From assembly GCA_028693165.1 (NCBI GenBank), contig JAQUVX010000004.1, forward strand, positions 1 to 64,000: DNA of 64,000 nucleotides. The letters run 5' to 3'. A model generated the notes under the pieces. It did not search any database, had not been told where the DNA came from, and was given only the letters and a program-made list of their open reading frames with translations. This document shows, one piece after another, positions 22,860 through 34,188 of the stretch. Within the stretch, counting starts at the first letter, position 1. Each line of letters begins with the position of its first letter. A program made the position numbers and the translations under genes. Source of the DNA: Lachnospiraceae bacterium (GTDB lineage: Bacteria; Bacillota; Clostridia; Lachnospirales; Lachnospiraceae).

Positions 22860-23864
22860 TTATTTATATTCTTCCTGTACCAGTGCTTTCGCAATCTCTA
22901 GATCGGACAGTCCAGGATTCCGTTCAATCAAATCATAGACCTCACGAACCTCGGCCTCATCCAGCTCCAATGCCTCCGCGGCCTCCGCCGCCGACAACTG
23001 TTTATCCCACTTTCTGCGCATCGCACTGATTATCCGCGCGCGCTCTTCTATACGGCCTTCCGCACGGCCTTCCACACGACCCTCCGCATGGCCTTCTATA
23101 CGCCCTTCCCTGCGCCCACGCGCCTCGGCTTTATCAAATAAATCACACATTCTGACTTCTCTCCCTTCTTTTTCCATCTCCGCCACCACTTCCATCGTTT
23201 CTGAGAATCGTTTATCTCCACTAAACGCCCGGAAGAAGTCTGCCACTTCGACCGGATGCTTTAAGGTTCGCTCACTGCGTGACTGATCTTCTGCTCCGCT
23301 TTTCTCGGCAAAATAATCTGCAATCACGCGAAAATCGCTTCTCAATTTCGCCCTGACCGATTTGGGCAGGCGCGGCACATCAATCAGATTGATCCGGTAG
23401 TCGACAAATTTGTGCTCCAGCTCTTCCGGTATGTCCATAAGCTCCTTCAGCGATGTTCCCACATCCCACTCCTGATCCCCAAAATACAGCACCGCCGTAA
23501 TCACCGGATAGCGCTGCGCTCCGGCATCCATCTGACTTCGGTAGGACGCGTAGTCATATCCCATCACCCGAATCGCCATATCCCGGTCCGTCTTCGATTG
23601 GTTTTCCATTCCGATAAACATCATCTGGATGCCCATGTTCTCCACGTACTTCGCCACATCGCGGCGCTGCTCTCTGTACCTCGCTGCATCATCCGCCTTG
23701 TAAATCGTTTCCGTCGGTCCGTCCCGAAGCTGATCTTCCTGAATCAACGGTTTCTCAAAAATCAGAACATTGCTGATGTCAGCAAATACATCCCTGCAGC
23801 CCTCCAGCTTCTTCTCCGCCCGATCCTTCTGCAGGCGCGGCACCGTCGCTTTCTCTTCCGACAT
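22860..23864 (-). CDS. Rpn-like / PD-(D/E)XK-type transposase-associated nuclease
   Basis: A 334-residue protein of the recombination-promoting-nuclease-like group common in Clostridia. The likely nuclease core is N-terminal (DVFADISNVLIF ~21-32; GMENQSKTDRDMAIRVMGYDYASYR ~85-108, with the E-x-Q element). A distinctive run of R-x-E-G-R repeats (~240-265) follows, then a small helical C-terminal domain. I place the start at ATG 23864, eight bases after AGGAGG; upstream ATGs are too close to that site. It is expressed from its own promoter with a ~170-nt leader homologous to that of the gene at 33478. The DNA target is unknown. Confidence 0.75.
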   Translation of the reverse strand: MSEEKATVPRLQKDRAEKKLEGCRDVFADISNVLIFEKPLIQEDQLRDGPTETIYKADDAARYREQRRDVAKYVENMGIQMMFIGMENQSKTDRDMAIRVMGYDYASYRSQMDAGAQRYPVITAVLYFGDQEWDVGTSLKELMDIPEELEHKFVDYRINLIDVPRLPKSVRAKLRSDFRVIADYFAEKSGAEDQSRSERTLKHPVEVADFFRAFSGDKRFSETMEVVAEMEKEGREVRMCDLFDKAEARGRREGRIEGHAEGRVEGRAEGRIEERARIISAMRRKWDKQLSAAEAAEALELDEAEVREVYDLIERNPGLSDLEIAKALVQEEYK

Positions 23865-24033
23865 ACTCATAACCTCCTTATGCAATTGTACGCAGGAGGC
23901 TTCTCTCGTTCGAAAACTCCTGCTTGTTCCATGTGATAATAAGCAAGAATTTTCTGATAGAAAGATCTGAAATAGCTTTTAGATACCCCCGAACTCGAAG
24001 AGCGGGAGTAAGATAAATTAGAAAATCCGCTTT
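23865..24033 (-). promoter_or_regulatory. Conserved structured 5' leader, copy 2
   Basis: The region from the predicted transcription start to the nuclease ATG aligns along its length with the leader at 33299-33477. Shared blocks on the minus strand include GATTTTCTAAT, TTTCTATCAGAAAATTC and GAACAAGCAGGAGTTTTCG. It ends in a hairpin in which CCTCCT (23899-23894) can pair with the Shine-Dalgarno AGGAGG (23878-23873). A mid-leader stem CCCG-CTC ... GAG-TT-CGGG matches in position the CCCGGT/ACCGGG stem of the other copy. Confidence 0.7.
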
Positions 24034-24039
24034 GCATTT

Positions 24040-24068
24040 ACTATAACACATATCATTCCAAATAGCAA
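24040..24068 (-). promoter_or_regulatory. Promoter of the nuclease gene, leader copy 2
   Basis: Minus strand TTGCTA (24068-24063), 17-base spacer, TATAGT (24045-24040). Downstream sequence AAATGCAAAGC corresponds to AGATGCAAAAGC after the promoter at 33264. Confidence 0.75.
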
Positions 24069-33190: not shown

Positions 33191-33205
33191 CAGAGAAGCT
33201 TCAAA

Positions 33206-33242
33206 GAGTAGAGTATGTAGAAATACATGCCCTGCTCTTTTT
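33206..33242 (+). terminator. Probable terminator of the glgB unit
   Basis: Imperfect stem around TATGT-agaa-ATACAT with outer AGAG/CTCT pairing, followed by CTTTTTCG. Confidence 0.5.
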
Positions 33243-33263
33243 CGGCAAACAGGAAAAGTACTC

Positions 33264-33292
33264 TTGCACGAAAGACGATCCTGTGCTACAAT
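33264..33292 (+). promoter_or_regulatory. Promoter of the nuclease-like gene, leader copy 1
   Basis: TTGCAC (33264-33269), 17-base spacer, TACAAT (33287-33292). It has the same layout, followed by the same ATGCAAA start, as the promoter at 24040-24068. Confidence 0.75.
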
Positions 33293-33298
33293 AGATGC

Positions 33299-33477
33299 AA
33301 AAGCAGATTTTTCTAATCCATCTAGCACCCGGTGATAACGACCGGGATGATCTCAGGGTTACTTCAGTGACATTCTATCGAAAAATTCATGCTTAGGATC
33401 ACAAGAGAACAAAGCAGGAGTTTTTCGCAGTGAAGAATGCGGGACCTCCTGTGCACAACTGCATAAGGAGGCACATC
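33299..33477 (+). promoter_or_regulatory. Conserved structured 5' leader, copy 1
   Basis: About 179 transcribed bases before the ATG. Visible elements are stem CCCGGT/ACCGGG (loop GATAACG), stem TTTTTC/GAAGAA around GCAGT near 33420-33437, and a final hairpin hiding the ribosome site (33445-33471). Blocks ATTCTATCGAAAAATTC and GAACAAAGCAGGAGTTTTTC match the leader at 23865-24033. The gene behind it is a different nuclease class, so the leader is conserved independently of the protein. Confidence 0.7.
33445..33471 (+). promoter_or_regulatory. Shine-Dalgarno-sequestering hairpin
   Basis: CCTCCT (33445-33450) is fully complementary to AGGAGG (33466-33471), with an inner TGCA/TGCA stem (33452-33455, 33460-33463). 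When folded, the ribosome site of the gene starting at 33478 is closed. Confidence 0.7.
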
Positions 33478-34188
33478 ATGAAGAAGAGCCAAAAGAGGTA
33501 TTCGAAGAGAGCAGTAGCGGAAAGAAACTATAAGGATACAGTGTGGAGGATGCTGTTCTATGTGACCAGCGAATACGAACTATTGATGCGGAAAAGATCC
33601 TTATATTCGTCAACCCTGCAAAAGATCCCGACACCGAAGTTTATTGTATTTTATAACGGTCAGGATAAGCAGATGGAGAAAGAGGAACTGTACTTGTCTG
33701 ATGCATATCTGGTTCCGACGGATGCCCCGGAACTGGAACTTAAGGTAACCATGTACAACATCAACATTGGACATAATCAGGAACTGCTGGAGCACTGCAA
33801 AACCTTGAACGAATATGCGATCTATGTTTCCAAGGTTCGAGAGCACACAGCACAGATGCCAACCGAAGAAGCAGTGGAACGCGCAGTAGATGAGTGCATT
33901 CGGGATGGTATTCTGGCAGATTTCCTCATCAAAAATCGAGCGGAGGTCGTGAAAATGAGTATATTTGAGTACGATAAGCAGAGGGAAGATGAAAAACTGC
34001 AAAGAGAGATGAAGGAAAATCTTCAAAGAGAGATGCAGAAAGAGCTGGATGCAATGCAAGCCGCCGCCGATCAGCGCGTAGCAGAGGAAAAGCAACGCGT
34101 AGCAGAAGAACAACAGCGCGCCGACAGAGCAGAGGCAGAACTTGCGAAACTGAAGGCACTTTACGAAAGCGCAGATCAGAGAAGGTAA
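33478..34188 (+). CDS. Rpn-family nuclease-like protein lacking part of the N-terminal core
   Basis: A 236-residue protein. The N-terminus NYKDTVWRMLF (~17-27) and the block SLYSSTLQKIPTPKFIVFYNG (~41-61) are characteristic of Rpn/COG5464-type recombination-promoting nucleases of Lachnospiraceae. In relatives, as I remember them, ~50-60 residues carrying the catalytic Asp and E-x-Q motif lie between these blocks; here they are joined directly by YVTSEYELLMRKR. The frame is intact, but catalytic residues seem deleted. The C-terminus (~180-236) is a charged coiled coil with QRVAEEKQRVAEEQQRA repeats. Probably a decaying or dominant-negative copy. Confidence 0.7.
   Translation: MKKSQKRYSKRAVAERNYKDTVWRMLFYVTSEYELLMRKRSLYSSTLQKIPTPKFIVFYNGQDKQMEKEELYLSDAYLVPTDAPELELKVTMYNINIGHNQELLEHCKTLNEYAIYVSKVREHTAQMPTEEAVERAVDECIRDGILADFLIKNRAEVVKMSIFEYDKQREDEKLQREMKENLQREMQKELDAMQAAADQRVAEEKQRVAEEQQRADRAEAELAKLKALYESADQRR

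Follow-up and report, generated by a model that had tools for sequence, protein, structure and literature searches.

Two genes in the stretch of Lachnospiraceae DNA analysed here (64,000 nucleotides, hereafter the window) are preceded by a shared module, which probably combines a promoter with a 5'-terminal cis-acting RNA that would act as a default-off translational switch, and which occurs in Lachnospiraceae mainly before genes for Rpn-like PD-(D/E)XK nucleases. On our best reading, this leader can also move between nuclease subfamilies. A sequence-only reading of the window had proposed a cis-acting RNA with its own role; homologues, covariation, association with nuclease genes and fold prediction all support that proposal.

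The leaders before the gene starting at 33478 on the plus strand (leader 1) and the gene starting at 23864 on the minus strand (leader 2) had been described as aligning from promoter to start codon. A MAFFT alignment agreed with this, with a mean column identity of 77% from the -35 box to the Shine-Dalgarno (SD) sequence; the TTGC-type -35 boxes, the 17-base spacers, the ATGCAAA directly after the -10 box and the shared blocks previously quoted could likewise be located in both leaders. The leader 1 promoter (33264-33292, plus strand) consists of a -35 box TTGCAC at 33264-33269, a 17-base spacer and a -10 box TACAAT at 33287-33292. It was read from the sequence and was not called by the consensus promoter scan, which reported only the promoter of leader 2 as promoter-like (24040-24068, minus strand; TTGCTA at 24068-24063, 17 bases, TATAGT at 24045-24040; score 9/12).

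Each leader carries five blocks. In leader 1, block 1 (AAAAGCAGATTTTTC, 33299-33313) lies at the predicted RNA 5' end and has block 2 as its partner, as indicated by the unconstrained nascent-length fold and by covariation in the family. Block 2 (GAAAAATTCATGCTT, 33380-33394) may pair with block 1 or block 3, and block 3 (AAGCAGGAGTTTTTC, 33412-33426) with block 2 or block 4, both according to folds and covariation, while folds and pair counts give block 4 (CCTCCTG, 33445-33451) either block 3 or the SD as partner. Block 5 is the SD itself (AAGGAGG, 33465-33471), which is sequestered in the full-length fold. Within the domain closed by blocks 1 and 2 (pairing 1:2), hairpin P2 (33326-33349) was predicted, and also, in the nascent-length fold only, hairpin P3 (33358-33371). 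The corresponding minus-strand elements of leader 2 are block 1 (AAAGCGGATTTTC, 24021-24033), paired with block 2 in the nascent-length fold; hairpin P2 (23984-24010), block 2 (GAAAATTCTTGCTT, 23941-23954), block 3 (AAGCAGGAGTTTTC, 23912-23925) and block 4 (CCTCCTGC, 23892-23899), all placed by the predicted fold; and the block 5 SD (AAGGAGG, 23873-23879), paired with block 4 in the full-length fold. The pairings form a chain of 1:2, 2:3, 3:4 and 4:5, in which 1:2 and 2:3 are mutually exclusive. These are the important pairings, and the stems drawn in the sequence-only reading were right only in part.

The genes behind the two leaders had been called nuclease-like and unrelated to each other. 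The minus-strand gene (22860-23864, 334 amino acids) is apparently an intact Rpn/YhgA-like (Transposase_31) nuclease gene, judging from the match of its product to PF04754 at 47.3 bits, above the curated cut-off of 21; its match to TIGR01784 reached 29.3 bits, below the cut-off of 52.1. The model predicted for the window nuclease was of poor quality (pLDDT 58). The plus-strand gene (33478-34188, 236 amino acids, open) is a remnant of an Rpn gene of the PDDEXK_2/TIGR01784 type, without the N-terminal nuclease core. From its own residue 24 on, its product is 55% identical over 152 residues to the Rpn/PDDEXK-type product of locus L168, where the match begins at residue 85; the first 20 residues of the L168 product are also matched, by eye, and what is missing is the stretch of about residues 21-84 that holds the nuclease core there. 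The product had no Pfam or NCBIfam match. Because this stretch is absent, the remnant is probably inactive as a nuclease, and the loss of the core, together with a G-A mismatch at the key 1:2 pair of leader 1, is what would be expected of a decaying copy. The nuclease-like label therefore stands for the gene at 23864, whereas the gene at 33478 is of Rpn type but has lost the core. As for the two being unrelated, BLASTP gave no convincing similarity between their products (E 0.044), but both are Rpn-like in kind.

Searching Lachnospiraceae with a covariance model, which the sequence-only reading had suggested, returned many homologues. The 191-base leader (33290-33480) found 10 places in its own 3.6 Mb genome, with the window's second leader at E 8e-12, and a covariance model built from nine own-genome copies (R1) found 14 places there at E < 0.01, nine of them its building set. 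By sequence, the genome has at least 14 leader copies, the window's two among them; it also has Rpn genes without the leader. At E 0.001, R1 matched 10 of 200 genomes of the family, its own included. A second model (R2), confined to blocks 2-5 (the 3' half) and thus containing neither block 1 nor the gene, matched 64 of 397 Lachnospiraceae genomes and 58 of 334 genera at E 0.01. Five of 391 genomes sampled from the class were matched by R2, three of them outside Lachnospiraceae and unlike the leader. We rejected these three (G503, G591 and G488), which resemble plain terminator hairpins: G503 and G591 have no block 1 by the stricter 5' block score (G591 passes a looser score, which we regard as false), while in G488 block 2 could not be recognised. 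Among 196 genomes sampled from the order, the window's own was the only one with a match at E 1e-4, even though the sample includes many members of the same family; searches over more than 40 genomes were run with stricter filters, by which weak matches are lost. No convincing leader copy outside Lachnospiraceae was seen in the class and order samples. An exact pattern (GAAAATTC-N-TGCTT, 10-32 nt, GCAGGAGTTTTC) retrieved 93 stretches from a public genome collection; among the 80 of 93 titles listed, nearly all were Lachnospiraceae or unspecified Clostridia/Eubacteriales, and the genera include Roseburia, Blautia, Anaerostipes, Hespellia and Mediterraneibacter, all of which we take to be Lachnospiraceae. 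A viral origin of the leader was rejected, as the same pattern had 0 matches in viral contigs. The spread of R2 matches over genera, together with the result from the order, suggests that the leader is present in many genera and patchy by species.

We assembled 216 leader positions from the 93 exact-pattern places, 114 R2 places and 9 own-genome places. The full R2 set comprised 119 places, after leaving out own copies already counted as L001-L010, reverse-strand hairpin repeats and the contig-end matches G004:C36 and G342:C258. A scripted block 1 score was passed by 196 of the 216 positions as against 104 of 1055 control places; this score contains a promoter term, without which the counts hardly change. 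Positions scoring at least 6 (the same 196 of 216) were then stripped of those at least 80% identical, leaving the 135 leaders used below. A relative of block 1 was present upstream in 92 of the 93 exact-pattern leaders, in 63 of them with at most one error, and for the 93rd the upstream sequence is 14 nt long. A promoter stood at the expected place in 74 of 134 leaders, compared with 3.5% of control places (74 of 133 when block 1 was chosen without regard to the promoter), and in 67 of the 74 leaders with a promoter of at least 9/12, block 1 (AAAGCATATTTTC-like) lies 6-7 nt past the end of the -10 box. This position just past the -10 box makes block 1 the predicted RNA 5' end. Transcription starting downstream of the conserved blocks, which had been named as one outcome that would speak against a leader RNA, is not what the sequence suggests, since the predicted promoter is directly upstream of the first block and a start would be expected there. 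After the interior enclosed by blocks 1 and 2 come, in order, block 2 (GAAAATTCATGCTT-like), a loop, block 3 (AGCAGGAGTTTTC), block 4 (CTCCTG), the block 5 SD (AGGAGG) and the start codon.

The suggested association with Rpn/PD-(D/E)XK genes proved strong. Block 1 was present at 98 of the 119 R2 places, and 75 of these 98 precede an Rpn-cluster open reading frame (ORF) of at least 120 amino acids, the rest preceding a short ORF (14), another ORF (7) or none (2); among the 21 places without block 1, only 8 precede an Rpn-cluster ORF. Single linkage by BLASTP joined 149 of 163 proteins of at least 120 amino acids, a linkage that repetitive tails may have helped. At E 0.01, and partly below curated cut-offs, 37 of 114 proteins matched TIGR01784, 14 PDDEXK_2 and 7 Transposase_31, and as many as 22 matched FliH models through their coiled tails. 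Taken together, the linkage, the family-model matches and the motifs argue for a probable common Rpn origin of all subgroups, one of which is the LQWHPAFYAG type, with a putative PD-(D/E)XK fold. Profile comparisons between subgroups were weak (from E 3e-6 over a 24-column tail to 0.013), a sequence search of solved structures with two subgroup profiles gave no match, and a further comparison with the PDB gave middling Z. PADLOC matched few of the 114 proteins, and none by a clear Rpn model.

Leader interiors were then compared between nuclease subfamilies, which we had tagged by regular expression, with some tags wrong (L058 and the protein at G177:C19:42659 were tagged WIN and are of FMFG type by appearance). 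Before different subfamilies of one genome, interiors were as much as 0.92 identical (in G143), and 0.61-0.85 identical among close own-genome copies, whereas the median identity for the same subfamily in different genomes was 0.52. Divergent own-genome copies reached 0.42-0.48 against others, and outside this genome the median for different subfamilies within one genome was 0.51 (19 pairs). Near-identical interiors before different subfamilies, although confined to some genomes, suggest that the leader has been captured between genes, and make autoregulation by one specific nuclease a disfavoured explanation.

Several individual loci differ from the usual arrangement. Two block-1 leaders in two genera (L199:486-947 and L221:1115-1615) precede not a nuclease but a JAB/JAMM-like protein with an HTH/HTHP-type motif (Pfam Prok-JAB E 0.05-0.08), and a third (L170:1582-2319) precedes a protein that has hydrophobic segments close to its N-terminus and could not be clearly assigned to a family. 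At L032 and L261, an IS21-type transposase gene follows at short distance a leader that is typical in other respects, which gives the impression of an insertion into the nuclease gene. On own-genome contig C18, L004 and L007 are tandem leader-nuclease units of nearly identical sequence, while L263, L264 and L265 (contigs C18, C2 and C16) are nearly identical Rpn genes of another subfamily that are leader-less, have a different conserved upstream stretch in common and look recently mobile. A cobalamin riboswitch (RF00174; L101:3996-4181) lies near a leader-bearing locus in Hespellia.

Covarying pairs, another expectation of the sequence-only reading, were found in both 1:2 and 2:3. For 1:2 we used columns left free in the searches, namely the block 2 base before TGC and the block 1 base after GC(A/G). 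This variable column was paired in 125 of the 135 leaders (all less than 80% identical) as U-A (97), A-U (11), G-C (8), U-G (5) or G-U (4), and mismatched in the other 10; shuffling gave 87.9 ± 3.6 pairs, with 0 of 20000 shuffles as high, and 124 of 134 were paired when block 1 was chosen without the promoter term. Below 62% identity, 53 of 60 leaders were paired (0 of 10000 shuffles as high), and below 56% identity, where 16 leaders remained, the signal was weak (12 of 16, a count reached by 220 of 10000 shuffles). The neighbouring column, where it was not the usual bulged C, was paired in 30 of 32 leaders compared with 16.1 ± 2.8 expected (0 of 20000). On alignment A3, 95.7% of the cells of the whole 1:2 helix were paired (slid versions, 41-59%). 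Such counts gave 85.2% for the 2:3 hairpin (slid, 39-59%), where both bases have changed at seven pairs, of which five lie in the outer extension, and 96.9% for the nearly invariant 3:4 (slid, 38-55%). Exchanging arms between loci weakened 1:2, 2:3 and 3:4, with 0 of 5000 permutations as good, while 4:5 covaried more weakly (12 of 5000 permutations in the R2 set). R2 was built on 2:3, so that its matches and the arm-exchange test are biased towards that hairpin, and kinship among the leaders inflates the covariation tests in general. At the two 1:2 columns, we counted 12 cases of G-U, two of A-C and 10 mismatches of other kinds, and this excess of G-U over A-C points to folding of the sense RNA, rather than of DNA or the antisense strand.

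Folding energies were computed for the 109 of the 135 leaders in which all blocks were found within set distances. In RNA ending just after block 2, 1:2 had a predicted probability of 0.99; once block 3 was added, 2:3 rose to 0.92 and 1:2 fell to 0.08; and at full length 2:3 reached 0.97, with the SD unpaired at a mean of 0.05 and a median of 0.01, compared with a median of 0.42 for 28 ordinary genes of the window. The 2:3 pairing was favoured in 106 of the 109 leaders, by a median of 7.0 kcal/mol. When 1:2 was enforced, 3:4 formed (mean best-pair probability 0.63) and the SD was unpaired at a mean of 0.41, as against 0.04 when 2:3 was enforced. Exposure of the SD was greater with 1:2 enforced than with 2:3 enforced in 108 of the 109 leaders, and by more than 0.2 in 72; in the other 37, including the window's copy at 33297 (0.10), the gain was at most 0.2 and the SD stayed mostly hidden despite the enforced 1:2. 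The two window leaders behaved in the same manner without constraint: at nascent length 1:2 closes P2 (and in leader 1 also P3), and at full length 2:3 and 4:5 make up the OFF fold. The earlier suggestion that the nuclease is kept silent is thus consistent with the predicted full-length fold, which hides the ribosome site.

We propose that block 1, at the predicted RNA 5' end, would pair with block 2 and close a domain of about 70 nt, mostly of two hairpins. In the alternative pairings, block 2 would form a long hairpin with block 3, block 3 would pair with block 4, and block 4 with the SD. Nascent RNA that just contains block 2 would form 1:2. Once block 3 is present, 2:3 would be the better pairing by about 7 kcal/mol and would leave block 4 available for masking the ribosome site; the resting RNA is therefore predicted to be OFF. 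If 1:2 were kept, block 3 would tend towards block 4 and the ribosome site would open (ON). As 2:3 wins at predicted equilibrium as soon as block 3 has been made, the ON state would be reached only if something holds 1:2. If some event made the 1:2 domain more stable, or masked block 3, an otherwise harmful nuclease might be turned on. Because the leader is not tied to one nuclease subfamily, the trigger is more likely to be a host-wide signal or factor than the controlled nuclease.

Instead of a signal-dependent switch, the leader may be a folding timer akin to type I toxin mRNAs, without any ligand, in which 1:2 forms first and 2:3 and 4:5 follow, each transcript giving a short burst of nuclease or none, or in which 5' processing sets the state. 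The type I toxin mRNA hok has metastable structures. Our leader is like such mRNAs in its predicted hiding of the SD on the mRNA of a toxic protein, and unlike them in encoding a large nuclease instead of a small peptide and in showing no excess of antisense promoters (24 of 110 leaders in the consensus scan, against 34 in mononucleotide shuffles), a result that also makes an antisense RNA against the leader appear less likely. The toxin mRNA aapA3 is kept translationally inert by successive SD-hiding structures formed during its synthesis, as described in PMC6733600. In agreement with a timer, 1:2 is the predicted pairing of nascent-length RNA (0.99) and gives way in the full-length RNA, so that it could be a passing folding intermediate; the interior is not conserved in the manner of an aptamer; and Rpn proteins of E. 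coli are toxic (PMC10327210). We nevertheless think a timer unlikely. The predicted equilibrium has already shifted to 2:3 by the time transcription reaches block 4 and the SD, which would allow hardly any time for a burst, and the covariation that has kept 1:2 across genera suggests more than a passing intermediate.

A strict metabolite- or protein-binding riboswitch, in which a ligand on the 1:2-closed domain stabilises 1:2 and turns translation on, seems similarly unlikely. Translational riboswitches have a 5'-terminal helix that closes a multi-hairpin domain and competes with an SD-hiding expression platform, and the leader is alike in this respect, with prediction and covariation giving a P1-like closing helix and a platform that are mutually exclusive. 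The interior is also more stable than its shuffles (mean z -1.58), most often has two hairpins (70 of 135) and is enriched in an ATTCTA-type motif (36 of 135, against 7.9 expected). This motif and a CCA/CAC motif noticed by eye in the 2:3 loop are possible binding sites. However, the interior varies in sequence and in length (median 69 nt, 5-95% range 37-109 nt), an alignment of it was not achieved and no strong conserved core was found in it. The leader thus differs from translational riboswitches in showing no strongly conserved ligand core and no match to an Rfam family: at gathering score, Rfam gave 0 matches in the window and none at the leaders of 8 relatives, and a permissive search of 33200-33520 gave E 1.4 or worse.

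Less probable still is a simple constitutive damper, a 4:5 hairpin that hides the ribosome site with no switching at all. The SD was less than 0.1 unpaired in 84% of the 109 full-length folds, as a damper would have it, but this would leave unexplained why 1:2 and 3:4 are maintained although that fold breaks them both.

Transcription attenuation, with 2:3 as terminator and 1:2 as antiterminator, we regard as very improbable. The left arm of 2:3 is A-rich and its right arm U-rich, as in a terminator, but the U run lies within the stem with no U tract after it, and a scan of the two window copies found no coding-strand terminator in either leader. Attenuators of the ermC and trp type use mutually exclusive pairings (1:2, 2:3 and 3:4) that end at a ribosome site or a terminator; the leader shares this chain of exclusive pairings, and differs in its five blocks, in controlling nucleases and in having no conserved leader peptide. 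An SD followed by an ATG-initiated ORF of at least four codons occurred in 15 of 110 leaders, compared with 12.9 in shuffles, on which we rejected a leader-peptide attenuator; with any start codon allowed, the count was 31 of the 110. A DNA-level repeat or mobile-element end, for example a recombination site used by Rpn proteins, would fit the many copies, their place beside genes named transposase and leader interiors that, within a single genome, reach 92% identity before genes of different subfamilies (the module moving between genes). It is nevertheless the least plausible account, and a solo DNA repeat was rejected, given the constant orientation, promoter and SD spacing, an own-genome stretch upstream of the promoter that is not common to the copies, the excess of G-U over A-C and the lack of exact-pattern copies in viral contigs.

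Our best reading of these folds and comparisons remains that the leader, standing before a toxin-like gene, would operate in the manner of an attenuator with competing hairpins or of a translational riboswitch, without a leader peptide and with no conserved aptamer found. A search by terms in the main texts of the structured-RNA surveys PMC8632094, PMC6429828, PMC11109978, PMC2864571 and PMC8040213 found no mention of such a leader, although the catalogue belonging to PMC8040213 could hold the element unnamed. A table in PMC2864571 includes a "Transposase-resistance" motif from several phyla with no Rfam number, and our literature search found no paper naming this motif. In PMC10327210, Rpn proteins (RpnL/RpnS) are described as toxic nucleases with anti-phage activity in E. 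coli, and they are known to be controlled by an antitoxin whose translation starts within the gene; a count of the words "leader" and "untranslated" in this paper gave 0 for each, and we found no published Rpn leader in the literature. The genes behind our leader resemble this system in being of the Rpn/YhgA kind, and the difference lies in the control, which is by RpnS within the gene there and by a leader here.

A broader and doubtful possibility is that these leaders are RNA sensors of defence in Lachnospiraceae, in which a portable leader before divergent nucleases and a JAB/JAMM-like family would respond through the 1:2 domain to a common signal of phage attack or damage, and would release translation of a suicidal or defensive enzyme without a leader peptide or an antitoxin RNA.

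The module adds an RNA family that Rfam lacks, and the pairings of its five-block competing fold are each open to a separate test. The leader is common to nuclease subfamilies too divergent to align, so that block mutations in a reporter offer a handle on the trigger. Rpn nucleases are widespread and toxic, which raises the question of how they are silenced in cells that carry a dozen of them. If the proposed switch is correct, the leader would be an RNA-level lock, acting earlier than the known post-translational antitoxin made inside the gene.
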